The notes under the pieces were generated by a model. The model was not told the origin of the DNA, searched no databases, and saw only the letters and a program-made list of their open reading frames with translations. A DNA stretch of 64,000 bases from Saprospiraceae bacterium (GTDB taxonomy: Bacteria; Bacteroidota; Bacteroidia; Chitinophagales; Saprospiraceae). Positions 3,520-17,546 of the stretch are shown one piece after another; within the stretch, counting starts at the first letter, position 1, and every line of letters starts with the position of its first letter. The stretch lies in assembly GCA_026982695.1 (NCBI GenBank), contig JALSGS010000021.1:62001-126000 (forward strand). The letters run 5' to 3'. A program made the position numbers and the translations under genes.

Positions 3520-4431
3520 ATGAGCATTCGCTTTATTCCCCTACTTGTCTTGTGGAGTACAATCGCCTTTTCGATTTGGAATTGCAGCCAATCTCAGCCC
3601 GATCGAGTAGCCCAACTACAAGCTGAAATCGAAATGCTCGAAGCTCAAATGGCTCAATCACCTTCACCTCAAAAAGCCGATAGCTTGGCAGCTAAATGCC
3701 AGGCCCTGGCTCCTCTACTTGCCAGCGATCGGAAGGCCATGCTGGAGACCTGGCACAAAGCGGCCGAAGCCCTCTACTATGCCAAGCGTTATCGGAGTGC
3801 TGCCGATTTGCTCAAGCAGCTGCTGCACGACTACCCCGACGCGCCCAATGCGCTACAAAATGCCCTATTACTAGCTACCATCTATCAGCAATTGAATGAC
3901 ACGCTCCAACAACTCGCCTTAGAACAGTGCATTGGCATTGCTTTTAAAGGTAATCCACCTGCTGATTCCCTGAAGGCACACACCCAAAAACATCTATCAG
4001 TACCCCAGCAGCTTGCACAGTTAGGGAAAGAATTATACGACATTGAGTCTCAGCAAATCGACTACAAAAAAGTAGCTGCATTTATCGAAATCAGTGAGCT
4101 GTATGCCGCGCTTCTGCCTCAAGACTCACTCTCACCGGTACTGCTGTTACGCGCTGCTGAGGCAGCTCGACTCGTCAAGCAATTTGACAAAGCACATGTA
4201 CTCTATGAATGGATTGTCAACCGATATCCAGATCACCCTAAGACAGCCGATGCCGTGTTCATGATTGCTTTTACTTGGGATAACGACATGGGGCAATACG
4301 ACTCAGCTCGCGTGTGGTACGAACGCTTCTTGCACACTTACCCTACTCACGGATTCGCCGATGACGCTCAAATCTTGCTGCAAAACTTAGGGAAAAGCCC
4401 CGAAGAGCTCATCAAAACACTGGAACAATAA
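3520..4431 (+). CDS. TPR-containing lipoprotein
   Basis: This 303-residue protein is predicted to be periplasm-facing. The ATG at 3520 gives MSIRFIPLLVLWSTIAFSIWNC, a hydrophobic signal ending at a Cys that fits a lipobox (FSIWNC), so lipidation is likely. A coiled-coil segment follows (AQLQAEIEMLEAQMAQ). The rest is alpha-helical with TPR-like units, clearest in the C-terminal half: AHVLYEWIVNRYPDHPKTADAVFMIAF and ARVWYERFLHTYPTHGFADDAQ, which resemble the BamD/YbgF type. The function is unknown; outer-membrane assembly or cell-envelope scaffolding is inference. It is followed by a convergent small reading frame and htrA. Confidence 0.8.
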   Translation: MSIRFIPLLVLWSTIAFSIWNCSQSQPDRVAQLQAEIEMLEAQMAQSPSPQKADSLAAKCQALAPLLASDRKAMLETWHKAAEALYYAKRYRSAADLLKQLLHDYPDAPNALQNALLLATIYQQLNDTLQQLALEQCIGIAFKGNPPADSLKAHTQKHLSVPQQLAQLGKELYDIESQQIDYKKVAAFIEISELYAALLPQDSLSPVLLLRAAEAARLVKQFDKAHVLYEWIVNRYPDHPKTADAVFMIAFTWDNDMGQYDSARVWYERFLHTYPTHGFADDAQILLQNLGKSPEELIKTLEQ

Positions 4432-4435
4432 ATAG

Positions 4436-4525
4436 CTACTTCACCACTTTTCCATCCAATTTGTTGTATAACTCGGGGAAGTCGCGCTCGATTTTCTGGA
4501 CCAAGCTAGCAAACTCCTCAACCAT
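4436..4525 (-). CDS. Possible 29-residue small protein
   Basis: An ATG-initiated frame encodes MVEEFASLVQKIERDFPELY followed by NKLDGKVVK and a stop. The amino-acid pattern is amphipathic-helical and protein-like, and the frame stays open 11 codons upstream of the ATG. It sits just downstream of htrA on the same strand, with its 5' end about 55 bp from the htrA stop, so it could be a distal operon gene or the remnant of a longer gene. No known family is recognised. Confidence 0.3.
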   Translation of the reverse strand: MVEEFASLVQKIERDFPELYNKLDGKVVK

Positions 4526-4579
4526 TACTGATAGCGCACTTTCATCTTTACAAACTTACATTTTTCATGCAAAAAAGTA

Positions 4580-5755
4580 CTAACGGGGTGGGTCGAGCAC
4601 TACCTCCACTTCGCGCACTTTGCCATTGCGCAAAAAGCGAATCCTGACGCGCTCACCAGGGCGATACTTTTCTAAAGCCAAAGGTATCTCTGCAGGTGAG
4701 TGAATGGGCTCATCACCTATTTGCGTAATGATGTCGCCAAGAACGATGTATCCATATCGATCTCTGCGCGTAGGGTGCAAACCAGCCCGGTCAGCAGCGC
4801 TACCCGGAATTATGTTGAGAATCAATGCGCCGCCCTCCAAGCCTAAACGAGCCATAGTACGTGCAGAAGCATATTCTGCTCCTAAAGAAGGCCTCATGAT
4901 ACGCCCATTGACGATTAGTTCGGGAACTACCCATTTGACCACATCTACTGGAATGCTAAAGCCAATGCCGGCACTGGCACCTGAAGGGCTATAGATAGCC
5001 GTATTCACACCTATGAGCTTGCCCGCCGAATTAAGCAGCGGTCCACCTGAATTGCCCGGATTGATCGCCGCATCCGTTTGGATCACATTGCGAATTGGCG
5101 TCCCCGACACGGATTTGATCTCCCTTCCCAAAGCACTCACTACTCCTGTGGTGAGTGTTTGATCCAGACCAAACGGATTGCCTATGGCAAAAACCGACTG
5201 CCCCACTCGCAAGTGCTCAGAAATGCCTAATGGAATGGGCCTCAACTTGGAGGCAGGTGCATCGATTTTCAAAACAGCCAAATCTTTCTCCGGCGCCACA
5301 CCTACCAAAGTAGCATCCCAACTGCTGTGATCAGCCAACGTCACCTGGGCTCGGTCAGCACCTTGAATGACGTGATAGTTCGTCACGATGTGCCCGCGCG
5401 TATCCCACACAAAGCCCGAGCCACTCCCACGTGGAATCTCCGTCACGTTCAGAGAAAAGAAGTCCATCTGCATCACGGACGTATTGATAAATACCACAGA
5501 GGGTGCTGCCGATTCAAAGATGCGAATCGTTGCACGTTCCACTTCGGTAAGCGCCTCTGCTAATGGATCAGGCCTAGTAGTATCCGTCTCATCATCAGCT
5601 CCCACTCGCTGATCATCATCCCACCTAACTTGCCGAGCCAACGGATCAGACTCAGTGGTACTTCGGCTCGGCAAGTGATTCTGCCAGCTCACCCCCAACA
5701 AAAAACCAGTCACTAATACTCCGAAAAAAAGAAAAACGCGCCACACAGATTTCAT
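4580..5755 (-). CDS. HtrA/DegP-family serine endoprotease with one PDZ domain
   Basis: This 391-residue envelope protease degrades or refolds damaged periplasmic proteins. The chosen start MKSVWRVFLFFGVLVTGFLLG gives a single N-terminal membrane anchor or uncleaved signal. The trypsin-like domain carries the full triad: His128 (IVTNYHVI), Asp158 (EKDLAVLKID) and Ser236 (INPGNSGGPL). One PDZ domain occupies roughly residues 285-385 (GLHPTRRDRYGYIVLGDIITQIGD region). One PDZ plus an N-terminal anchor resembles DegS/HhoA-type members rather than two-PDZ DegP. The divergent GIN-domain gene upstream shares the intergenic region. Confidence 0.93.
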   Translation of the reverse strand: MKSVWRVFLFFGVLVTGFLLGVSWQNHLPSRSTTESDPLARQVRWDDDQRVGADDETDTTRPDPLAEALTEVERATIRIFESAAPSVVFINTSVMQMDFFSLNVTEIPRGSGSGFVWDTRGHIVTNYHVIQGADRAQVTLADHSSWDATLVGVAPEKDLAVLKIDAPASKLRPIPLGISEHLRVGQSVFAIGNPFGLDQTLTTGVVSALGREIKSVSGTPIRNVIQTDAAINPGNSGGPLLNSAGKLIGVNTAIYSPSGASAGIGFSIPVDVVKWVVPELIVNGRIMRPSLGAEYASARTMARLGLEGGALILNIIPGSAADRAGLHPTRRDRYGYIVLGDIITQIGDEPIHSPAEIPLALEKYRPGERVRIRFLRNGKVREVEVVLDPPR

Positions 5756-5938
5756 AAGTTGCCTTTTAGTTGCCCTGCTTAAGGGTAAAACATATGGCAA
5801 AGCAACAAAATTGTCCAGAAAACGAGTGCGCTTACTGGCAATAGCCTTTTAACCTGCAACTTTCTTCTCATCAAACAGTCTTTATTACATCCCCCCTTTT
5901 TTCAAAGTCCTTTCTTTTCTCACCAAAAAAACAGACAA

Positions 5939-6625
5939 ATGAGACAATTGACCTACGCGGCATGGTTGTGGATATTGCTCAGCACCACAACACTCTTTGC
6001 ACAACAGGGGCAAGAAGTATCCATAGGCTCCTTTTCCGACATTGAACTGAGTATAGCAGCCACCGTGTACCTCACCCAAGGACCACTCAAAGTTCACATC
6101 GATGCTACTGATCCGCGCGACTTTGACGCACTCAACAAAAGCGCACACAATGATAGCTGGCACATCAAGTTTACCCCAAGTATATGGTCGCAAAAGGGCA
6201 TTATCACTATCTACATAAGTGTACCTCAATTGAAAGACATCGACATCACGGGGTCAGGCCAAGTGATCGGTCAACAAGCCTTTAAAGGCGAAAAGTTCGA
6301 GTTTAGTGTCACTGGTTCGGGTGCTATCGACTTTGAACTGGAAGATGCCCAAGAGGTAAAAGCCGAAGTAACTGGCTCAGGGCACGTCGTACTCAAAGGA
6401 CAAGCCGAGGAAATTGAAATAAAAATTGCTGGTTCTGGCAGCATCGATGCAACACACCTACAAGTAGCCGAAGCCGATGCCGAAATCACTGGATCAGGTT
6501 ATGCCAAAGTCTTTGCCATACGCGAATTGGAAGCCGAAATCATGGGCAGCGGCACCGTATATTACAAGGGCCAGCCCAAAATCGAAGCTAACACTTTTGG
6601 CAGTGGCCAAGTTAAGCCTCTATAG
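5939..6625 (+). CDS. GIN domain (DUF2807) secreted beta-helix protein
   Basis: This 228-residue protein has a signal peptide (MRQLTYAAWLWILLSTTTLFA). The mature part matches the putative auto-transporter adhesin, head GIN family: an N-terminal beta-rich segment, then a regular series of turns each carrying a G-S-G signature (TGSGQVIG, TGSGAIDF, TGSGHVVL, AGSGSIDA, TGSGYAKV, MGSGTVYY, FGSGQVKP). That is seven rungs about 20-22 residues apart, consistent with a right-handed beta solenoid. It is probably exported to the periplasm or surface. Function is not established for the family. A strong terminator follows, so it appears monocistronic. Confidence 0.85.
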   Translation: MRQLTYAAWLWILLSTTTLFAQQGQEVSIGSFSDIELSIAATVYLTQGPLKVHIDATDPRDFDALNKSAHNDSWHIKFTPSIWSQKGIITIYISVPQLKDIDITGSGQVIGQQAFKGEKFEFSVTGSGAIDFELEDAQEVKAEVTGSGHVVLKGQAEEIEIKIAGSGSIDATHLQVAEADAEITGSGYAKVFAIRELEAEIMGSGTVYYKGQPKIEANTFGSGQVKPL

Positions 6626-6646
6626 AGCACAGTGGAACTCAACTCC

Positions 6647-6680
6647 AAAATGGCTGCCTTATATGAGGTGGCCATTTTTT
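6647..6680 (+). terminator. Rho-independent terminator after the GIN-domain gene
   Basis: AAAATGGC pairs with GCCATTTT, extended inward by TGCC/GGTG with wobble pairs. The loop is about 8 nt and the stem runs into a T-run (TTTTTT). Confidence 0.75.
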
Positions 6681-6729
6681 ATCTTCCTACCTTTGTCCTC
6701 CAACTGAGTATGCTTATCATTCAACAAAC

Positions 6730-7059
6730 ATGCTGAACATGGAAACAATTTTCTTACAATCTGCTGGTAATCAAGGGATAATGACATTGGTCTTTTGGGG
6801 GCTGATCATTTTGGTATTCTGGCTGTTTATGATACGCCCTCAAGCCAAACGCCAACGCGAACAACGCCAGTTTATTGATTCTTTGGAAAAAGGGCAAGAA
6901 GTCGTGACGGGTAGTGGCCTGATTGGCCGCATCAACAAAATAGAGGGCGAGATCGTCACACTCGACCTGGGTAACAAACACTTCGTACGGGTGTTGCGCA
7001 GTGCCATTTCCAAGGAAATGACTGATGCACTACATAACGCTGAAGAAAAAAAGGACTGA
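6730..7059 (+). CDS. yajC: Preprotein translocase subunit YajC
   Basis: This 109-residue inner-membrane protein is an accessory subunit of the SecDF-YajC complex. One N-terminal transmembrane helix (GIMTLVFWGLIILVFWLFMI) is followed by the family motif RPQAKRQREQ and a small cytoplasmic domain (GQEVVTGSGLIGRINKIEGEIV). Length is normal. An internal ATG at 6739 (METIFLQSAG) is an equally plausible start. The YbbR-domain gene follows 29 bp downstream on the same strand, an arrangement common in Bacteroidota. Confidence 0.93.
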   Translation: MLNMETIFLQSAGNQGIMTLVFWGLIILVFWLFMIRPQAKRQREQRQFIDSLEKGQEVVTGSGLIGRINKIEGEIVTLDLGNKHFVRVLRSAISKEMTDALHNAEEKKD

Positions 7060-7088
7060 GTGCCTATACACATCGATTCAGATAGCCA

Positions 7089-8087
7089 ATGGACTTCAAG
7101 AAATTGTGGAAACAAGTCCAGAGTAAGAAGCACCACATCAAGCTACAACTTGGAGATGAGCAGATTGTGTGGCTAATCTGTTTGGGCATTTCGCTGGCCT
7201 TTTGGCTGGGAGTCAAGCTAGATCAAAGTTATACCACCCAAATCCAGGTACGCATTACCTGGCAAGTACCCGACAGCCTAGCCTGGACGCACCCCCCTCC
7301 CAAGACGATGTACGTAGAAGTAAAAGGAAGAGGATGGGATCTACTAGCGCAAAGCTTGTGGCGCAGCGATCCCGTTCTGTTCTTTCCCTTAAATGCACGC
7401 AATACTCCCACAGTCTCTCGGCCGGAAATCATCGCCCAGATAGAAGCGCAAATCCATCCAGGATTATCCATTCAGCGACTCGAGCACGACTATCTGCCCA
7501 TTAGCCTAGAGGCCAAACGCATTAAGAAAGTGCCCATCTACCTTCAACTCAAAGACATCAGCTTTGCCAAAGGCTACTATCTAACCGATAGCATCAAGGC
7601 AATACCCGATTCGGCACGTGTCGAAGGTCCTTTTTCCATTATAGATCCTATTCTACAATGGCCCACCGAGCCAATTTCACTACACAATATCGATGGGTTT
7701 CAACAAATCACAGTACAACTACAGTCTCCTTTTTTACCCGTACTACGCATCTCACCTCAGCAAGTACAAGTAGTCATTCCTGCCGAACGCTATACAGAAA
7801 AAGTGCTGCATCAGCCCGTTGTCGTCCTCAACGACAGCAATTCTATTCGCATCCATCCTGACCACGTCCGCCTCAGCTTTGAGCTGCCCATGAGCCACTT
7901 CGACCAAGTGGATACTAGCGACTTTCTAATCGTAGCAGACTTGCGCAAGCTCACTCCCGGCAGCAAGCTCACTACTACGCCACTTCACTTGATGAAAAGC
8001 CCCCCTTTGGTGCGGCACGTGCGATTCAGTCCTCCCGCAGTGTCCTTTTACTTCGTACAAGCCGAAAAAACAGAGAACCCCCAATAA
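7089..8087 (+). CDS. YbbR/CdaR-like domain membrane-anchored protein
   Basis: This 332-residue protein has one N-terminal transmembrane helix (VWLICLGISLAFWLGVKL) followed by beta-rich repeats resembling YbbR domains. Repeats end in VEVKGRGWDLL, PIYLQLKDISFAKGYYL-DSVRVEGP-type and VVLNDSNSIRIHPDHVRL segments. Placement directly after yajC matches the usual Bacteroidota yajC-ybbR order, but the usual coaE partner is absent; a convergent gene lies 17 bp away instead. In Firmicutes CdaR regulates the c-di-AMP cyclase CdaA; whether that holds here is unknown. Confidence 0.75.
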   Translation: MDFKKLWKQVQSKKHHIKLQLGDEQIVWLICLGISLAFWLGVKLDQSYTTQIQVRITWQVPDSLAWTHPPPKTMYVEVKGRGWDLLAQSLWRSDPVLFFPLNARNTPTVSRPEIIAQIEAQIHPGLSIQRLEHDYLPISLEAKRIKKVPIYLQLKDISFAKGYYLTDSIKAIPDSARVEGPFSIIDPILQWPTEPISLHNIDGFQQITVQLQSPFLPVLRISPQQVQVVIPAERYTEKVLHQPVVVLNDSNSIRIHPDHVRLSFELPMSHFDQVDTSDFLIVADLRKLTPGSKLTTTPLHLMKSPPLVRHVRFSPPAVSFYFVQAEKTENPQ

Positions 8088-8104
8088 AGGGTTGCGCACT
8101 TATT

Positions 8105-8698
8105 TCAAAGCTGGTCAATCCAATAACCTGATTGTTGTTGCCAAAAATCGGGTATTTCCACACTTTGCAAGGGAGCACATGCGTGGCGCAAAAGCCGCAC
8201 ATCGAAGCCGTGGCTACGAGCTGCTTCAAACGTATGGCCCAACAGGCCATCGAGTGGTAGACCAGCCAACACCAACAAGCCAATTCGCTGTTGAGCCAAC
8301 CACGCTATCAGCCCCGTCGATTGTCCATCTGCCTCTTCAAAGGCCGAGTAATGATCTACTTCCGGGCGCATCCCTACATCCACTACGCGATCCCAGCTAA
8401 CAGTCTCGAGTGGAGGCACCCATCGAGCTCCAAAGGAGTCGCGTACGCAATGCATAGGCCAAAGCATTTGCATGTGATCGGTCAATGCCATGTACTGACC
8501 AGGCTTGCGCCACATATGCCTTGCGGCAAAACTCACGTGGTCGGGCGGGTGCCACTCACGTACACCTATGCACAGTGTTGCCTTGGATACCTGCCGAGCA
8601 ATATACCCAGCCAAGCGGTCGGCTACACCTCCCAAACTACCCAAAGAAGAGTGATCGACTTGCATACCAGCAACCAACAACGCAATAGGCTTTTTCAT
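8105..8698 (-). CDS. Nicotinamidase/isochorismatase-fold protein lacking the catalytic triad
   Basis: The 197-residue sequence aligns along its whole length with bacterial PncA nicotinamidases: REWHPPDHVSFAARH, LWPMHCVRDSFGARWVPPL, MRPEVDHYSAFEEADGQSTGL. All three catalytic positions are changed: the Asp of the DVQ motif is Gly11 (VAGMQ), the Lys of the RKGT motif is Val108 (VDVGMRPE), and the Cys of the TDYCV motif is Leu152 (LPLDGLL). The metal site is mostly kept (Glu48 for Asp, His50, His83). Hydrolysis of nicotinamide is therefore not expected; a binding or structural role is inferred. It overlaps the upstream DUF4956 gene by 4 bp, so the two are translationally coupled in the polyphosphate-polymerase operon. 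Confidence 0.85.
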   Translation of the reverse strand: MKKPIALLVAGMQVDHSSLGSLGGVADRLAGYIARQVSKATLCIGVREWHPPDHVSFAARHMWRKPGQYMALTDHMQMLWPMHCVRDSFGARWVPPLETVSWDRVVDVGMRPEVDHYSAFEEADGQSTGLIAWLAQQRIGLLVLAGLPLDGLLGHTFEAARSHGFDVRLLRHACAPLQSVEIPDFWQQQSGYWIDQL

Positions 8699-9393
8699 AT
8701 AGGCAAGGGATTGTCCTGTTCAAAAGATTCTTCTACTAATTGCACCTGCTCGATCCCCTTCACCTGGCGCACAGCATGTACCACTTGTGTAGGATGTGCC
8801 TTTTTGTGTAAGTGCAACACCCATGTGGCATGTACCTGCTGGACGGCAACATCTGTACGTAGCTGCAACAATGTTGCCTTTCGGCAAAAACGAGTGAACA
8901 CCTGCTGAATTTGAGCTTCCATGTCCGAATGATGGGCACCCCAAGACAATACTAATAGATGTCGATGACGAACAATTCGCCCAAAATGCACCAAGCCGAG
9001 CAATAAACATATGATCGAAACAAAAGCTGTACCTATAAGTGCCACCCACCTAAGGCCCACACCGGCAGCTAACCCCATAGCTAGCGAAAAGAAAATAAAA
9101 ACGATGTCTTGTACTTGGCGCACAGCCGTGCGAAACCGGATAATAGACATGGCACCTACTAAGCCAAAAGCTCGGGCTAGGTTATTGCCAATGACTAAAA
9201 TGACTATAGCCGTAATCAGTGAGAGCAACACCAGCGATTGTGCAAAAGACGACGAATAACCCGGTTGATGCACACTTAGTCGATAGACCAAAGCGATCGC
9301 CAATCCACACAGCAATGCCACTAGCAAGTTGACCATAAAGTCATATAGCGTCGTAGCATGTGCAAAGTCTAATATAGGGTAAGTTTCTTCCAT
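8695..9393 (-). CDS. DUF4956 membrane protein
   Basis: This 232-residue protein has an N-terminal membrane region of about four helices (FMVNLLVALLCGLAIALVY, SLVLLSLITAIVILVIG, IVFIFFSLAMGLAAGVGL, VALIGTAFVSIICLLLGL). It contains the family-typical cytoplasmic motif GLVGAMSIIRFRTAVRQVQD and ends in a soluble ACT-like domain of about 85 residues. DUF4956 proteins are typically encoded next to VTC-domain polymerases, as here (33 bp after the VTC gene). They are presumed membrane partners, but the function is unproven. The gene carries an internal copy of the 15-bp repeat word at 8876-8890. Confidence 0.85.
   Translation of the reverse strand: MEETYPILDFAHATTLYDFMVNLLVALLCGLAIALVYRLSVHQPGYSSSFAQSLVLLSLITAIVILVIGNNLARAFGLVGAMSIIRFRTAVRQVQDIVFIFFSLAMGLAAGVGLRWVALIGTAFVSIICLLLGLVHFGRIVRHRHLLVLSWGAHHSDMEAQIQQVFTRFCRKATLLQLRTDVAVQQVHATWVLHLHKKAHPTQVVHAVRQVKGIEQVQLVEESFEQDNPLPI
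8876..8890 (-). repeat. Copy 2 of the 15-bp word TTTTTGCCGAAAGGC
   Basis: Exact reverse-strand copy inside the DUF4956 coding region, where it encodes F-C-R-K-A. The reading frame differs from the copy in the TRAP permease gene, which argues against a shared protein motif. Confidence 0.75.
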
Positions 9394-9426
9394 AAACCAT
9401 GGGTATCATCTGCTGCCGTACACAGC

Positions 9427-10161
9427 CTAATGTACGTGAGTCACTCGCCTTCCATTTGCAAAGCAGGTATCCATACAAAGGCAATATTTCGATACCGAAC
9501 GGGGCACTCCTTCTGCCAACATCAACAACTCGCGCAGCCACACCGGACAGTACTTGTTGTACTTCACCTCGAGCACGAACCATCCAGGCATCACCGGATA
9601 AGTAGTGCCATCCCATTCGGGTCGAAAGAGATCGGGATCCCACACTGCCCTCAAGTTCATGTCGAAAGTCACGCGCAAGCCATTACCCTTAGGATCCAAA
9701 GCTTTTGGCAGTAGCCAGGGGCGACGCTCGTATACGGTAGCTACTGTTGGCTTCATGTTGTAGTACCATAAGTCAAAACACATCTGCTTCAACGCATCAG
9801 ACGGCGTAGACGGCAATTGGCGATAATGCCACAGGGCATGTAGTTGTTCGTGGGTAAGCGGAACTCTTAATTTCTGCATCGGATTCAAGTATTTTTCCTT
9901 CTTTTCGAGAAAAAACATAGGTTGGCTCGATGAGCTTACGCCCGCATAAGTGCGCACTCTAATTTTAAACCGCCGCTTGATGCCCTCTACTTTATCGAAG
10001 TAACACTTTAGCTGAGGTGTATCAAAATACACACTGCGCACGGTGTAGTGTCCTCCTGCTGCTTGTGCCCACGAATCGCACTCCATGTACATCGCAATGT
10101 GGTTACGCAATGTAGGGAGCATCGACTCGGGAAAAAGGTATTTCAACTCATATCGGAGCAT
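9427..10161 (-). CDS. VTC-domain polyphosphate polymerase
   Basis: This 244-residue soluble protein belongs to the VTC/CYTH-like triphosphate tunnel fold that in yeast Vtc4 makes polyphosphate from ATP. The tunnel residues look intact: RYELKYLF at the N-terminus, VRSVYFDT, EGIKRRFKIRVRTY, MFFLEKKEKY, VATVYERRPW, LRVTFDMNL, FVLEVKYN and RSVSKYCLCMD. It contains no SPX domain, as is normal for bacterial members. It follows the HlyD-like gene by 13 bp and precedes DUF4956 by 33 bp, so a membrane-tethered polymerase complex is likely. Substrate and product are inferred from the family only. Confidence 0.88.
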   Translation of the reverse strand: MLRYELKYLFPESMLPTLRNHIAMYMECDSWAQAAGGHYTVRSVYFDTPQLKCYFDKVEGIKRRFKIRVRTYAGVSSSSQPMFFLEKKEKYLNPMQKLRVPLTHEQLHALWHYRQLPSTPSDALKQMCFDLWYYNMKPTVATVYERRPWLLPKALDPKGNGLRVTFDMNLRAVWDPDLFRPEWDGTTYPVMPGWFVLEVKYNKYCPVWLRELLMLAEGVPRSVSKYCLCMDTCFANGRRVTHVH

Positions 10162-10174
10162 ATCCGTGTTTCAT

Positions 10175-11239
10175 TCAATAAGATGCTACCCCAGCTCGAA
10201 AGATATAGTCTTTCAGCGTGAGCGTATCCACAGTCAAACGCACGGCTTGCCATCTGGGCCAAGTGGCTATTGCTGCAGATGACAATGGCTGTACAACAAT
10301 CCATGGCTGCACTTGTTCCTGACGCCATATCACATCAGGTGGCTGTGGCAACACACGTACAGCTATACGACCATCCGAGTATTGTAGCCAAAGCGTATCA
10401 CCTACATGGATGTCTTGAGCTAAGGAGAGCGGCAGGCCAACGCGTCCTACCCAGTTAGTAGTATCTTCTACCCAGTATTGCCATTCCTGTGTGCGCACTT
10501 CAATGCGCAAGATTCCACTTAGCGGCGCCTGCCATTGCAGTGCTGCCTTTTGCTCGAGTAATACTTGCTGTTGGGTAGCCCATTGGGCAATTTGTTGTCG
10601 GAGATAAGCCTGTTGTGGTACCTTGACACCTGTCTGCAAATCTGCTACCCGGCTTTGTGCGCGTTCGTACCGCTTTTTTGCCACTTCCACAGCCTGTGCA
10701 TACACTTCCAACTCAGCCATTGGCAAGAGGCTGTCGCCAAACAACGCTGCAGCTCGCCGCCATTGCTTTTGCGCCAACGCTAGTTGGCTGGCAGCTATTT
10801 CCTCCTCTTTTTGCGCTTGACGCACCTGTTCAGGTTTGGCACCTGTGCGCGCCACTTCCAATTGAGCCCAAGCCAAAGCCAGGCGCGAGGCTACGTCGTG
10901 GAGTTCGCGCTCCAACTGGACACTTTCCAAACTCAATATCCGTTGGCCAGCACAAATACTGACTCCCTGGTACAAGCTATCGGGCACACGCCATTGCCAC
11001 ACATCACCTCGCTGAGGAAACAACTGGCGTTCCATGTGCCAGACGCCCCGCTTCAAATCAAAGCTGTACGAAACCACACGCCCATCACGTTGCAGCGCAA
11101 CCATCCATCCACGCGAAGGTTGCCAATGTACCCAAGTGTCTATTTGTCGCGGCAGTGTTACTGGCCACCAAAACAAGCTGCTCAAAGCCATCAATAGGGC
11201 TCCTGCCAACACTTTGCGCCAAAGAATATAGTGCGACAA
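10175..11239 (-). CDS. HlyD-like membrane fusion protein of the VTC operon
   Basis: This 354-residue protein has one N-terminal transmembrane segment (VLAGALLMALSSLFWWPV). A beta-rich lipoyl-like segment is split by a long helical hairpin (about residues 115-235, rich in Q, A and R), and a C-terminal beta domain follows. This is the architecture of periplasmic adaptor proteins of efflux and type I export systems. No inner-membrane transporter or TolC partner is beside it; instead it heads the operon with VTC polymerase, DUF4956 and the degenerate nicotinamidase. The start is uncertain: the frame opens with TTG at 11239 and the first ATG is codon 17, inside the hydrophobic segment. Confidence 0.7.
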   Translation of the reverse strand: MSHYILWRKVLAGALLMALSSLFWWPVTLPRQIDTWVHWQPSRGWMVALQRDGRVVSYSFDLKRGVWHMERQLFPQRGDVWQWRVPDSLYQGVSICAGQRILSLESVQLERELHDVASRLALAWAQLEVARTGAKPEQVRQAQKEEEIAASQLALAQKQWRRAAALFGDSLLPMAELEVYAQAVEVAKKRYERAQSRVADLQTGVKVPQQAYLRQQIAQWATQQQVLLEQKAALQWQAPLSGILRIEVRTQEWQYWVEDTTNWVGRVGLPLSLAQDIHVGDTLWLQYSDGRIAVRVLPQPPDVIWRQEQVQPWIVVQPLSSAAIATWPRWQAVRLTVDTLTLKDYIFRAGVASY

Positions 11240-11387
11240 GGTATATGGATTTCAATTACAAATTGAGTTTTTATTCCTTAGAGATGAAAATAGAAATTTA
11301 ACAGACAATGTCCACATTTGCACTTTCACTATTTGACTGGTGCAAGTGCTTGTCGCATTTTGCAAAAAAAACTCAACAACAGGCATT

Positions 11388-12659
11388 ATGTCTGATCGTC
11401 CTCTTCCCTCCATATGCAGCCTAATTATTTGGGTTATGTACTGCCTGCTATGGTTTATACCATTGAGCAGCCAAGGTCAAATGGGATGCACCGACCCCTT
11501 AGCAAGCAATTACGACCCTACAGCTACCATAAATGACGGATCGTGTACCTATCCACCTACCAGCTATACACCTGCCTGGGTAGCCACGTTGCCCACTTCA
11601 TTGTCTGAACTATCCGGGCTTAGTTGGCACAATGGCTGGCTATGGGGCATCAATGACAGTGGCAACGAACCGCGCATTTGGGCCATCGACACGACCGATG
11701 GCCAGACACTTGGCTATGCGACGATTGCTGGAGTCTCACTAATCGATTGGGAGGCCTTGGCCAAAAGCGACACCCATCTGTTTATTGGCGATATTGGCAA
11801 TAACGATGGGTTGCGCAGCAGCCTACGCATTCTACGCATTGCTCTCGATCAACTCGATACAGGCGTAGTGCTTACCCCTGACATCATTCAATACCACTAC
11901 GAAGATTGGGATCCCAACTTGCCTGCTTCTCAAAAAAAGGACTTTGACTGTGAAGCTATGATCTTTTCCGGTGACAGTCTACACCTCTTCACCAAAGGCT
12001 GGAACTCCTTCCAAACAAAGCACTATGTAGTACCTGCAACCCCAGGTGATCATACGGCCAAATATCTGCAATCGTTCGACTGCCAAGGGCAGATCACTGG
12101 GGGCGCCCGCACCCCAGAAGGCGCCTGGGTGTTGTTGGGTTATAACGTACAAACAGCGCAATCATTTCTATATTTGTTGTACGACACACCCATGTTGCCT
12201 CCTCCCCCTACAGATCCTTTTTCCAAAAACAAGCGACGCATTGGGCTGGGCTCGGCACTGACCAATGGGCAAACAGAAAGCTTGACTTTTGTGAGCCCTG
12301 CATTAGGCTACATGGGCTCGGAAGCATTTGCCATTTTGCCAGCACAGCTACTACGCCTGGGCATTGGCCAATGGCTGTATCCACCTACAACGGCTACCTC
12401 CTCGGCAATGAACATCCCTGCCTTGCACCTTCGCTCAGAAGGCACTACGGATCGATATACTTTCGAATGGACAGGTAACGAGCCACTCCAACTCCTAATA
12501 ACCCATAGCTCAGGCGAGGTGGTGTGGAAAAAACAGCTACCCGCAAATAGCATATGGATGTGGGACGCCAGCTTTCTACCTACGGGCGTGTACTTTTACA
12601 GCGCACATACCGCCCAGACTCGAAAAAATTACACTGGAAAATTACTCGTAATTCACTGA
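11388..12659 (+). CDS. Secreted protein with GCTDP-type repeat and T9SS-like tail
   Basis: This 423-residue exported protein begins MSDRPLPSICSLIIWVMYCL, with cleavage likely near SSQGQ. Directly after the signal lies MGCTDPLASNYDPTA followed by NDGSC, a short cysteine motif seen in many marine Bacteroidota secreted proteins. The central region has beta-propeller-like blades (SGLSWHNGWLWGINDSG, ESLTFVSPALGYMGSEAF). The C-terminus (PTGVYFYSAHTAQTRKNYTGKLLVIH) resembles a T9SS type A sorting domain, so delivery to the surface is inferred. The enzymatic role, if any, is unknown. The next gene, sbcD, begins 12 bp later but is probably unrelated in function. Confidence 0.75.
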   Translation: MSDRPLPSICSLIIWVMYCLLWFIPLSSQGQMGCTDPLASNYDPTATINDGSCTYPPTSYTPAWVATLPTSLSELSGLSWHNGWLWGINDSGNEPRIWAIDTTDGQTLGYATIAGVSLIDWEALAKSDTHLFIGDIGNNDGLRSSLRILRIALDQLDTGVVLTPDIIQYHYEDWDPNLPASQKKDFDCEAMIFSGDSLHLFTKGWNSFQTKHYVVPATPGDHTAKYLQSFDCQGQITGGARTPEGAWVLLGYNVQTAQSFLYLLYDTPMLPPPPTDPFSKNKRRIGLGSALTNGQTESLTFVSPALGYMGSEAFAILPAQLLRLGIGQWLYPPTTATSSAMNIPALHLRSEGTTDRYTFEWTGNEPLQLLITHSSGEVVWKKQLPANSIWMWDASFLPTGVYFYSAHTAQTRKNYTGKLLVIH

Positions 12660-12671
12660 CTACCTCGCGAC

Positions 12672-13889
12672 ATGAAAGTACTGCACACTTCTGACTGGCA
12701 TTTGGGTCAGCAGCTACACCAGAGAAGCCGAGCAGAAGAGCACCATCGCGCACTACAGTGGCTCATACAGCTCATCGAAACAGAACGCGTAGATCTATTG
12801 CTCATTTCTGGCGATGTATTCGACCTGACCAATCCACCAAATTATGCCAGAAAGCTGTATCACGATTTCTTGAACAGCGTCACAGAGTCGGGATGCCGAG
12901 TAGTCATCACTGCTGGCAACCACGACTCACCTACTATGTTGGATGCCACCAGCAGTTTGCTGCAACGCATAGGCGTCACGGTAGTGAGTCACGGTACAGA
13001 GCACATATACGAACAAATCGTACCTGTCAAAGATCCACAAGGCAACCTATTGGCAGTAGTAGCGGCCGTTCCCTTTCTACGCGACACCTTATTGCTGCCG
13101 CCTATAGCAGGCGAAAGCCCCGAAGACAGAGTCACCCGCCGACGCGCTAACCTAAAAGCACACTACGAACAAATAGCCCAGGCCATACGTCAATATGCCG
13201 CCCATCAAGTACCTCTCATCGGGATGGGGCACCTCTATGTCCAGCATTGCGACGACCCCGAGGGGCAAGACAATATCTACTTGGGCGACAAAGCCAATAT
13301 ACGCGTAGAAGACTTTCCCGAGGTTTTCGACTATGTAGCACTGGGCCATATCCATCGCGCACAAACACTAGATACTCAAGGTCGCATCCGATATGCCGGT
13401 TCATTGATTCCCCTAAACTTTAGCGAACAACCCGATGACAAGTCGGTATGGCTACTCAAATTCGAAGGCCGCCAACTCAAAAACATTAGTGCCTATCCAG
13501 TACCTACTTATCGCCGCCTCAAGATCATCTATAGCCAGGCCAATGAATTGCACACCCAACTGAAAACATTTGCCGAAAGGCATACAAATGAACTGAAACC
13601 TTGGGTATGGGTTAAACTTACTGACAATCAGCCATTGCACCACCCCGTAAGATTAGTAATGGAAGCAGCCAAAGAGTTACGGCTTGAAATAGTGAGCACT
13701 ACAGTGGAACCTCATGCCAGCCTACACCCAACTTCTCAACCCTTTGCACAAGATTTGAAGATGCTTGCCCCCGAAGAGGTATTCAACTTCATCTTAGCAT
13801 ATCACAACTTTGATGAACCCACCAAGCAACAGCTGCGACAAACTTTTCGCGAGTTACTCGAACTGGTCCAACAAAGAGAGAAAGCATAG
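12672..13889 (+). CDS. sbcD: Exonuclease SbcCD, nuclease subunit SbcD
   Basis: This 405-residue Mre11-type metallophosphoesterase works with SbcC to open DNA hairpins and process double-strand ends. All phosphoesterase motifs are visible: TSDWHLG at the N-terminus, SGDVFD, AGNHDSP, GMGHLYV and ALGHIHRAQ. The length is normal. The stop lies 3 bp ahead of the sbcC ATG, a tight operon. A 13-nt copy of the repeat word lies at 13569-13581 inside the gene. Confidence 0.95.
   Translation: MKVLHTSDWHLGQQLHQRSRAEEHHRALQWLIQLIETERVDLLLISGDVFDLTNPPNYARKLYHDFLNSVTESGCRVVITAGNHDSPTMLDATSSLLQRIGVTVVSHGTEHIYEQIVPVKDPQGNLLAVVAAVPFLRDTLLLPPIAGESPEDRVTRRRANLKAHYEQIAQAIRQYAAHQVPLIGMGHLYVQHCDDPEGQDNIYLGDKANIRVEDFPEVFDYVALGHIHRAQTLDTQGRIRYAGSLIPLNFSEQPDDKSVWLLKFEGRQLKNISAYPVPTYRRLKIIYSQANELHTQLKTFAERHTNELKPWVWVKLTDNQPLHHPVRLVMEAAKELRLEIVSTTVEPHASLHPTSQPFAQDLKMLAPEEVFNFILAYHNFDEPTKQQLRQTFRELLELVQQREKA
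13569..13581 (+). repeat. 13-nt partial copy of the repeat word (TTTGCCGAAAGGC)
   Basis: Thirteen of fifteen positions match exactly from the third T. It lies inside sbcD, encoding F-A-E-R. A further near copy with one mismatch lies at 14352-14366 in sbcC, though there it encodes the conserved FLPQGAF motif and may be coincidental. Confidence 0.5.
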
Positions 13890-13892
13890 CTC

Positions 13893-16800
13893 ATGCGTAT
13901 TCGAAAAATCAGACTGAGCAATATCCACTCACTGCATGGCACACACCAAATCGACTTTACCGTGCCCCCACTGAGCACTACTGGGCTATTTGCCATCATA
14001 GGCCCTACAGGTGCGGGCAAATCCACACTGCTAGATGCTATGACATTGGCCCTATATGGAAAGATCGCCCGCCACGATGGCCTGTTTACTGAAGTAGTCA
14101 GTTATGGCGCACCTTCAGCCTTTGCTGAGGTGGAGTTTGAAGCCAACGGACAACTGATCTTGGCACGATGGGAAATTCAACGAAAAACGCGAGGCAAAAA
14201 TAAGGGCGCACTCAACCCTGCGACACGCAGCATTGCTTTTTGGGACGCACAAAAACAACAATGGTTGCTCAAAGCCAGCAAACACCGCACATGCGACCAA
14301 CTAATCCGCCAATATGCCCATTTGGATTTCGAGCAGTTTATCAAAACTGTCTTTTTGCCGCAAGGCGCATTCACCAATCTGCTAAAGGCACCACCCCACA
14401 AACGCAGCGATATCCTAGAGGCTATTACGGGCACGGAAATCTACACTCAGCTGTCCATAGCGGCACATGAGCAATTTCGCTATCACAGCCAGCAAGTAGC
14501 CCAACTCGAACAGCAACTCAGTGAGGTTGGCCTGTTGACAGATGAACAAGTAGCCACATTGCACCAACAAATTGCACAACTGGAACAACAGCTCCAACAG
14601 CTACAAATAAGAGCACAAGAGATACAAAAGGCACTCAATCTTTGGGATCAACATCACAAGTTACAAACCCAACAACAAGAACTAGCTCGGGAAAAAAAGG
14701 CGCTGGAAGCCCAACGAGCCGCAGAAGCTGACCTCCTTGCCAAACTGAGACGTTGGGAAGAAATAAAAGACCTAGAGCCCCTATGGCACAACTACCAACA
14801 CTACCGCAATAAACTAACAGAAGCCAGAGAAAAACTCGACACACTCACCCAAGCCATTGCCGCTCTCCAAAGTGAACAACAACCCTTACAAAAAGAAATC
14901 GAAAGGCTCAAAGCCCAAGTCGAAACGGAAAAACAGCAATTGCGTCGCCTTGAGACAGAATGGCAACATATGGAACAACTCGACCAGCAAATAGACAAGC
15001 AAATCCTCGTAGTGCAAGAAAGAGCCACTCAATTGGAAAAACTACGCACACAACACGACACATGGCTAAAAAAACAGCAAATTGCCCAAAAAGAGCTCTC
15101 TACGCTCAAAGAGAAAATCGAACATTTTCGCAGCTGGCAACAACAACACCCCCATATCAACGAGTCGCTAGCCAAATCGCTCAGTGGCCTGGAAAAGCAA
15201 TGGGAAATACAACGCCAACTAAAAGAAAAACTGGCAGCACTATCAAACGAAATCTTACACACAAAGCAACAAATCGACGCAAAAGCACAAGCACTGGAAG
15301 AAGCACAACAAGACTTCCATCAGTTACAAATCCGAAAAGACCACTTGACCACACAGGCCAAAACCCTCAGCACTTCTCTTGAACAACTACCTCAAACACT
15401 AAAGGCTATCGAACAGCAACGGACAAACCTAATGCACGATTGCCAACAGCTCGAACAAGGCATCCTCCTCGTGGAAACACTGAGAAAAAAGCAAAAATTG
15501 CGCGCCCAGCTACAAAAACGCCTTACATGCAACCATGCCCAAAAGCAAGCACTCGCGCAACAATGTGCCCAACTACAGGAAAGACTAAAGTATCTGCAAG
15601 ATCAAGTAAAAAGAGCGGAAAGACTATTTCTGCTTGAATCAAAGTTCCAAAGCTTACAAGCACATCGCCGCCAATTGAAAGAAGGCATGCCGTGTCCCCT
15701 TTGTGGTGCCACCCATCACCCATGGGCCGATAAAGACGCCTCTCAAGAAAGGGTAGCAGAAGCAAAAGAAAGCCTCGAACAAGCCAAACATCAACTCGAT
15801 CAACACAGAGCCCTACATGCGGAAAAAGAAAAAGAACGAGCACGTCTCTGTACTCAAATACAAGCCGACGAAGCCTACAACAAAGCCTTAGCCGATGAAC
15901 TCCAAACCCTCTCCAAACAAATTGAAGCATGCAGCCAACAACTCAAACAGCCCGCTCCCACCGAGCGTTGGCCACAAAGCTTGCCACAGCTGAAACAAAA
16001 GCTAAAAGAAACGCAACAGCGCTTCGAGCACCTTATTGCGCTGCAAAAAACACTCGACAAGTGGAAAGAAACGCAAACACAAAAGACCACCGAAATTCAA
16101 CTCCTCAAACAAGCGCGTACCCACTTAGAAACAATCCTAAAGGAAAAGCAAAAGGAAAAAGAAACTCTAATACGAGAAAATGAACAAATACAGCAAACGC
16201 TCCAATCAACCTTAAAAAGCCTATCGATCACCCAACCACTCACCCCTACACTGCTTCAACAACTCCACGCTGCACTGGAATTTTGGCAAAATGAAAAAGC
16301 TGCATACTACACGCATATGCAAAGAAAGGCGGTCCTGGACAATCAACTGACTCAGCTTCGGCAACAGCTGGATGCTTTGGACAGTGAAGTTTTACATTGT
16401 GAGAAAATTTTGGAAAATGAAAAGAAAATTTTAAAAAAACTCAAAACGCGACGCGAGGCACTTTTCGGAAACCGTATGCCCTCTATGGAGCGAAAAAACC
16501 AACAAGCACGTATAGAAGAAACTGAGCAAGAGTTACAAACCCAACAACAGCAACTGCAGCAACTACAACTGCAGTGCTCCAAAAAGTTGGGCCAAGCACA
16601 AGAGCTCAAACACGCATATGAAGCGCTTCTGGCTACTTTTGACAACTATAACCAAGAATTGCGCACAGCTGCACGTCAGTATGGCATCGATCAAATCGAT
16701 CAGCTGGCTCAATACCTACCTGACAAGGCTACTTTAGACCATTGGTTAGCCACTAAAAAGGGATTGGAAGAACAGGCACAAAGAATTGAAGGAGAAGCAC

Positions 16801-17546
16801 GAGCCATTACCAAAGCGTATTACCAGATTGAAGATCAGCTAAAAGACAGCCCTCCAGAAGATGTACTGCATCAGCAAGCCAATGCCTTAAAACAGCAAAT
16901 CAATGACATCAATCGCCAAATTGGTCAACACCGCGAAAAACTCAATCGGCATCAGCAGAACCTCAACAAAGCCAGCCAATACCAAGCGCAACTGCAAATG
17001 CGACGAGCCGAGCTAGAGCGATGGGCCCAACTGCGACATCTCATTGGCAGTAGCGATGGAAAAAAATTCAAACTAATAGCCCAATCGCTTACACTCCGAC
17101 GATTAGTCGCTCATGCGAACCGGCATCTTGCCCGTTTTTTATCTGGCCGATATACGCTGCATACCCATCCCCAACTGGATGAAGAACGATCATTGCTGGA
17201 GCTATACATTGTGGACCATTTTCAAGCCGATACAATGCGCCCCGTAAGCACGTTATCGGGCGGTGAATCCTTTTTGGCCAGCCTATCCCTTGCGCTAGGC
17301 TTGGCCGACTTGGCCAGCAATCAGATAAGTATCGGATCACTGTTCATCGACGAAGGCTTTGGCACGCTCGACGATAAAAACCTCGACACTGTTATGGAGG
17401 TACTGGAAAGCCTGCGCAACTCGGGCAAAACAGTTGGCATTATCTCGCACGTAAAAGAACTGCGCGAACGCATTGACGTACAAGTAGAAGTTCGGCCATT
17501 AGCCAATGGCATGAGCACCATTCGAATTCACCCCAATGTCACTTAA
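13893..17546 (+). CDS. sbcC: Exonuclease SbcCD, ATPase subunit SbcC
   Basis: This 1217-residue Rad50/SMC-type ATPase has a Walker A motif at residues 37-44 (GPTGAGKS) and FLPQGAFTNLL early in the protein. Two very long Q/E/K-rich coiled coils flank a zinc-hook CPLCG near residue 600. The C-terminal lobe carries the signature TLSGGESFLASLSLALGLAD, Walker B SLFIDEGFGTLD and the His switch IISHVKEL. It partners with SbcD, whose gene ends 3 bp upstream. It acts on the chromosome in the cytoplasm, tethering and processing DNA ends. The length is somewhat above E. coli SbcC, within family range. Confidence 0.96.
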   Translation: MRIRKIRLSNIHSLHGTHQIDFTVPPLSTTGLFAIIGPTGAGKSTLLDAMTLALYGKIARHDGLFTEVVSYGAPSAFAEVEFEANGQLILARWEIQRKTRGKNKGALNPATRSIAFWDAQKQQWLLKASKHRTCDQLIRQYAHLDFEQFIKTVFLPQGAFTNLLKAPPHKRSDILEAITGTEIYTQLSIAAHEQFRYHSQQVAQLEQQLSEVGLLTDEQVATLHQQIAQLEQQLQQLQIRAQEIQKALNLWDQHHKLQTQQQELAREKKALEAQRAAEADLLAKLRRWEEIKDLEPLWHNYQHYRNKLTEAREKLDTLTQAIAALQSEQQPLQKEIERLKAQVETEKQQLRRLETEWQHMEQLDQQIDKQILVVQERATQLEKLRTQHDTWLKKQQIAQKELSTLKEKIEHFRSWQQQHPHINESLAKSLSGLEKQWEIQRQLKEKLAALSNEILHTKQQIDAKAQALEEAQQDFHQLQIRKDHLTTQAKTLSTSLEQLPQTLKAIEQQRTNLMHDCQQLEQGILLVETLRKKQKLRAQLQKRLTCNHAQKQALAQQCAQLQERLKYLQDQVKRAERLFLLESKFQSLQAHRRQLKEGMPCPLCGATHHPWADKDASQERVAEAKESLEQAKHQLDQHRALHAEKEKERARLCTQIQADEAYNKALADELQTLSKQIEACSQQLKQPAPTERWPQSLPQLKQKLKETQQRFEHLIALQKTLDKWKETQTQKTTEIQLLKQARTHLETILKEKQKEKETLIRENEQIQQTLQSTLKSLSITQPLTPTLLQQLHAALEFWQNEKAAYYTHMQRKAVLDNQLTQLRQQLDALDSEVLHCEKILENEKKILKKLKTRREALFGNRMPSMERKNQQARIEETEQELQTQQQQLQQLQLQCSKKLGQAQELKHAYEALLATFDNYNQELRTAARQYGIDQIDQLAQYLPDKATLDHWLATKKGLEEQAQRIEGEARAITKAYYQIEDQLKDSPPEDVLHQQANALKQQINDINRQIGQHREKLNRHQQNLNKASQYQAQLQMRRAELERWAQLRHLIGSSDGKKFKLIAQSLTLRRLVAHANRHLARFLSGRYTLHTHPQLDEERSLLELYIVDHFQADTMRPVSTLSGGESFLASLSLALGLADLASNQISIGSLFIDEGFGTLDDKNLDTVMEVLESLRNSGKTVGIISHVKELRERIDVQVEVRPLANGMSTIRIHPNVT

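Follow-up and report, generated by a model that had tools for sequence, protein, structure and literature searches.

Here we describe a conserved three-gene unit encoding a HlyD/MacA-type periplasmic adaptor, a VTC-domain protein and a DUF4956 membrane protein. It was found in a 64,000-nucleotide stretch of contig JALSGS010000021.1 (the window, to which coordinates refer unless a locus is named) from a Saprospiraceae bacterium, whose genome comprises 3.84 Mb in 61 contigs. We lean slightly toward the view that this trio is a synthesis-coupled, trans-envelope polyphosphate exporter, in which VTC, a DUF4956 channel, the adaptor and a TolC-type protein would act together. The genes lie on the minus strand and are transcribed in the order adaptor (10175 to 11239), VTC (9427 to 10161), DUF4956 (8695 to 9393) and a fourth, nicotinamidase-like gene (8105 to 8698), with spacings of 13 bp, 33 bp and a 4-bp overlap; the open reading frame (ORF) coordinates agree with the packing on one strand given in the initial annotation. 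That annotation had proposed a membrane machine that makes and perhaps moves polyphosphate, with the nicotinamidase-like protein as a small-molecule sensor. Conservation across phyla strongly supports the adaptor-VTC-DUF4956 unit, while the polyphosphate product, the DUF4956 conduit and the exit from the cell are what we infer.

Genome contigs were scanned with a DUF4956 alignment, which gave 342 relatives, and the best 80 of these form the set behind all counts out of 80 below. Seventy-three of the 80 loci carry the trio, in Bacteroidota (45), Fidelibacterota (10), Ignavibacteriota (10), Chlorobiota, Calditrichota, Latescibacterota, Zixiibacteriota and Kryptonia, and the gaps between its genes have medians of 3 and 9 bp. 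Among the others, L106, L117 and L123 end at a contig edge near DUF4956 or VTC, and L087 (same contig as G019), L115, L118 and L130 are without a complete trio in the stretch examined. A first survey, within the window's taxonomic order, had found five further genomes with adaptor-VTC-DUF4956 on one strand. Best-hit bias was avoided in a census of every VTC gene in 395 genomes drawn evenly from the window's GTDB phylum. DUF4956 adjoins VTC in 63 of 63 census loci, and a HlyD-like adaptor stands beside both in 42 of them, in three gene orders: type I, adaptor-VTC-DUF4956, as in the window (28 loci); type II, VTC-DUF4956-adaptor (13 loci); and type III, CotH-DUF4956-adaptor-OEP-VTC-LTD (one locus, in genome G377), where OEP denotes a TolC-type channel gene and LTD a lamin-tail protein. 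The remaining 21 VTC-DUF4956 loci have no adaptor. In a tree of VTC and DUF4956, the adaptor-bearing loci form one clade (Shimodaira-Hasegawa-like approximate likelihood ratio test, 89) with the 21 no-adaptor loci outside it, and adaptor presence requires three label changes versus 28.7 in shuffles. The arrangement of the first three genes is not due to chance, and the conserved unit consists of adaptor, VTC and DUF4956, with the nicotinamidase outside. The presence of the adaptor and nicotinamidase-like genes at related VTC-DUF4956 loci had been set beforehand as a refutation test of the initial annotation; the adaptor withstands it, the trio being conserved across phyla, and the nicotinamidase does not.

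Some individual loci deserve mention. The trio of L213 (G019, 3578 to 14884) is broken, other genes filling the roughly 9 kb that separate the upstream adaptor from VTC-DUF4956, and the adaptor of L262 (G496, 4702 to 5750) is split over two ORFs by a frameshift or a sequencing error. Genome G295 has two near-identical trio copies (L208 and L209, on C3 and C6) whose surroundings differ on one side, a result of recent duplication or an assembly effect. In Bacteroidales, downstream NTP-transferase and PDDEXK genes were taken as lineage synteny and not as functional partners.

The window adaptor is matched weakly by sequence (NF002939 HlyD, 1.7e-7), but it is clearly a HlyD/MacA-type periplasmic adaptor by its predicted fold. 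Its AlphaFold model (predicted local distance difference test, pLDDT, 91.8) comprises an N-terminal membrane helix (residues 2 to 24), a lipoyl half-motif, a hairpin (107 to 168 and 174 to 232) and C-terminal barrels, and the best solved structures retrieved with it by Foldseek are MacA, EmrA and AcrA, with E values down to 7e-11. The R-x3-L-x6-S (RLS) motif, which binds TolC in MacA, AcrA and HlyD (PMC3391258), is conserved at the hairpin tip, with R in 46, L in 42 and S in 34 of 49 adaptor sequences; because the median top-residue frequency of the hairpin is 0.39, its R and L stand out. Judged by bit scores, the adaptors of type I trios are a distinct, dedicated family, as trio members score at least 289 and the remaining HlyD proteins in the window's taxonomic order no more than 103. 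HlyD-like genes abound in these genomes, and the adaptor might serve another transporter and lie here by chance, as in ordinary efflux. This we consider scarcely credible, since the census contradicts it: the operon has no ABC, RND or MFS gene, and the dedicated adaptor family recurs in three gene orders and many phyla.

The VTC-domain protein has a polyphosphate polymerase fold and is predicted to be cytosolic, without a membrane helix. It matches PF09359 over the whole domain (4e-33, residues 2 to 233 of 235) and yeast Vtc4 with 6.8e-10. Sequence alignment reveals that the Vtc4 tunnel set K200, R253, R264, R266, K281, K294, R361, R373, E426, K428, S457 and K458 corresponds to K7, K57, R68, R70, K88, K97, R146, R163, E198, K200, S224 and K225 in the window, the Lys at the R253 position being a conservative change, which bears out the earlier description of the tunnel residues as intact. 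The equivalents of Vtc4 K200, R264, R266, K281, K294, R361, R373, E426, K428 and K458 do not vary in types I and III, nor in type II, barring one truncated row at K200. PPK1 is encoded by each of the 13 genomes tested, of which twelve have the trio, so ordinary internal polyphosphate does not depend on VTC, and a separate membrane-coupled polymerase fits a non-storage role. One PPK1 gene (G000:C21:177051) lies on the trio's own contig, about 105 kb away.

The DUF4956 protein, our proposed inner-membrane conduit, matches PF16316 (1.8e-13, 51 bits against a curated cut-off of 30.6) and, weakly, MgtC. Its model (pLDDT 87) has five membrane helices and a C-terminal ferredoxin/ACT-like domain, for which the Foldseek matches include MgtC C-domains with weak scores. 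R86 and R88, in or at the membrane helices, are invariant in all 63 sequences, and R74, likewise placed, shows no variation in types I and III. In the mechanism we propose, VTC would polymerize phosphate from ATP on the cytosolic side, and the growing polyanion would be threaded through the basic, MgtC-like membrane core of DUF4956; by analogy with yeast VTC, polymerization itself would feed the chain into DUF4956 and onward through the adaptor. The nicotinamidase-like protein would not be needed. We put forward more tentatively, as an idea about as apt to fail as to hold or slightly more so, a polymerase-driven tripartite secretion, in which VTC would push polyphosphate out of the cell by way of the DUF4956 channel, the dedicated adaptor and a TolC-type channel.

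TolC-type genes occur within three variant operons. G049 has the order adaptor-VTC-DUF4956-OEP-propeller, the operon of G377 reads CotH-DUF4956-HlyD-OEP-VTC-LTD, and in G471 (L259, 3932 to 7200) the adaptor, DUF4956 and OEP genes each overlap the next. Together with the RLS motif, these operons support a putative link to export across the outer membrane. Where no OEP gene lies in the operon, the channel would be encoded at a different site, and 15 OEP matches occur elsewhere in the window's genome. The G377 locus (L273, G377:C24, 958 to 7847), with gaps or overlaps below 30 bp from DUF4956 on, is the fullest variant seen, and a single-sequence search, with the sensitivity that this implies, found a complete operon of its kind in G377 alone among 294 genomes of its class. 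OEP genes near L046, L104, L269 and L270 are oriented opposite to the unit and so may belong to other pumps; at L269 and L270 (G687 and G531), a TetR-OEP-HlyD efflux operon diverges from VTC-DUF4956-adaptor. An outer-membrane channel was also searched for as a regular operon member, which it proved to be at few loci only, and a broader OEP profile was dropped after it drifted onto coiled-coil adaptors.

Several observations weigh against such an exporter. The motif of the window adaptor itself reads R162, L166 and P173, with proline at the third position, the most permissive one of the RLS motif (PMC3391258). The TolC-type gene lies inside the operon only at the loci of G049, G377 and G471, and no VTC was detected in genome G471 despite its adaptor-DUF4956-OEP genes, a pump core that may work with another supplier. 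The VTC and DUF4956 tree was built quickly, and the window and G377 sit on long branches in it. All adaptor-bearing VTCs have an acidic residue typical of tunnel hydrolases, E5, at the Vtc4 T198 position, and our literature search found no published assay of bacterial VTC activity. Alternatively, the VTC-like enzyme might hydrolyze or transfer triphosphate and make no polyphosphate, and the trio would move or modify another anionic product. E5 aligns with an acidic-patch position of tunnel hydrolases, and G471 keeps its pump genes without VTC, so the pump may take other substrates. However, tunnel hydrolases have an acidic patch in place of basic Vtc4 residues (PMC4641920), and the adaptor-bearing VTCs share basic residues with the polymerase where Vtc4 has R196 (two aligned type I sequences excepted), K294 and K428, in a pairing of acidic-patch positions with AtTTM3 residues that is partly our own inference. 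Taken with the acidic E5, this pattern reads as polymerase-like, short of proof. Given also the invariant K458 and the PF09359 match, we find a hydrolase or transferase quite improbable.

A stronger competitor, which we nevertheless judge unlikely, stops at the periplasm: VTC and DUF4956 would deliver polyphosphate or another phosphoryl product there only, and the adaptor would scaffold or regulate partners in the periplasm or at the surface, e.g., CotH-type kinases, with no crossing of the outer membrane. One third of the VTC-DUF4956 pairs in the phylum have no adaptor, 19 of the 80 loci have CotH within 5 kb, the TolC-type gene is rarely in the operon, and the report of Gram-positive Pel clusters that include CotH, polyphosphate polymerase and DUF4956 makes no mention of an adaptor (PMC7112168). 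However, the conserved TolC motif at the hairpin tip and the TolC-type gene in three variant operons are at odds with a role confined to the periplasm, and we retain trans-envelope export as the preferred reading.

The fourth gene, whose 4-bp overlap with DUF4956 makes it probably cotranscribed here, encodes a nicotinamidase-fold protein (PF00857, 1.3e-6; NF008623 nicotinamidase, 1.9e-24). The catalytic triad is gone, with Asp replaced by Gly11, Lys by Val108 and Cys by Leu152, in agreement with its earlier description as dead, while the metal site is kept (E48, H50, H54 and H83, with Glu in place of Asp). The ortholog in the congener G001 (56% identity) has lost the same triad residues and has the same two neighbors, but the trio is absent from this site and G001 has no VTC. 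Because G219 and G029, from the window's family, share the layout of a trio divergent from a homolog of the gene at 11340, it is simpler to suppose that G001 lost the trio; whether or not it was lost, the dead nicotinamidase is maintained without the trio. A four-part system with this protein as its small-molecule sensor would be in line with the overlap, and both congeners retain the fold and metal ligands, which means that the gene is constrained. However, G001 and the neighbor surveys, in which the gene was not seen beside any other trio locus inspected, largely refute the idea already and leave it very improbable. Of the four families whose co-occurrence was checked, adaptor, VTC and DUF4956 are conserved across phyla and the nicotinamidase is not among them; it is a lineage-specific neighbor, and we rejected it, and its assignment as a sensor subunit, as part of the system.

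On the other side of the operon, a divergent gene (11340 to 12659, plus strand) encodes a secreted beta-propeller-like protein, a distant SdiA-regulated/YjiK relative with a C-terminal sorting tail. Its homologs recur near the trio, divergent in Saprospiraceae, downstream in G014 and G049, and upstream in L098 and L125, and 5 of the 28 type I census loci have, next to the trio, a member of a related SdiA-regulated/YjiK-like family (hhalign E 8e-7, probability 91). It is a commoner fourth neighbor than the nicotinamidase-like gene; six trio genomes have their best homolog located elsewhere, so the gene is accessory at most, and probably just that. The intergenic region (11240 to 11339) between it and the operon is by position the probable promoter region, in which a promoter-like match (11314 to 11287, minus strand) does not exceed the chance level in a scan against shuffles. 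A weak terminator-like hairpin with a T run (8076 to 8093, minus strand) directly follows the nicotinamidase-like gene, and the region has about as many terminator-like sites as expected from shuffled sequence. Beyond the beta-propeller gene, SbcD- and SbcC-like genes (12672 to 17546) follow, the SbcC-like homolog being in kept synteny in the congener.

The trio can be compared with several known systems. The nicotinamidase-like neighbor shares the fold and metal-binding residues of the PncA family, whose catalytic Asp, Lys and Cys it has all replaced. Clusters of CotH, a polyphosphate polymerase and DUF4956 are described next to Gram-positive pel operons (PMC7112168), and NELoc-2 of Clostridium perfringens has a VTC/CotH cluster (PMC2879425). 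These share the VTC and DUF4956-type pairing, often with CotH near; no adaptor was reported there, whereas the adaptor loci here form a separate clade. With tripartite pumps and type I secretion (MacA, EmrA, AcrA and HlyD with TolC) the trio shares the adaptor fold, the RLS motif and, in some operons, a TolC-type gene. In contrast to them, its operon lacks an ABC, RND or MFS transporter, DUF4956 would be the inner-membrane part, and energy would come from polymerization by VTC.

To our knowledge, bacterial VTC proteins have no assigned function, DUF4956 is rarely mentioned in the literature we searched, and that search, which left out most subscription journals, returned no relevant description of a bacterial VTC with a HlyD-type adaptor or of polyphosphate export. 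A conserved VTC-DUF4956-adaptor module, TolC-linked in some genomes, suggests a concrete role for both families. If our reading is true, it would be, as far as we know, the first dedicated bacterial route of polyphosphate export, and export, once shown, would make it a new kind of secretion system built from known parts.

The closest likeness is to the eukaryotic VTC complex (yeast Vtc1/Vtc3/Vtc4), in which the chain is translocated as it is made, along a basic path that leads into a membrane channel (PMC9911596). Both pair a membrane domain with a tunnel polymerase domain of the VTC type, whose catalytic residues agree, and we propose for the trio the coupling of synthesis to translocation that the yeast complex has. 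However, the membrane partner of the trio is the MgtC-like DUF4956 and not Vtc1-type helices, no SPX domain is seen in it, and a HlyD-like adaptor is added. The yeast complex serves one membrane, whereas the trio would cross the bacterial envelope, extended over a second. The trio may represent an evolutionary parallel to the eukaryotic VTC complex, where polyphosphate synthesis and membrane passage are coupled.

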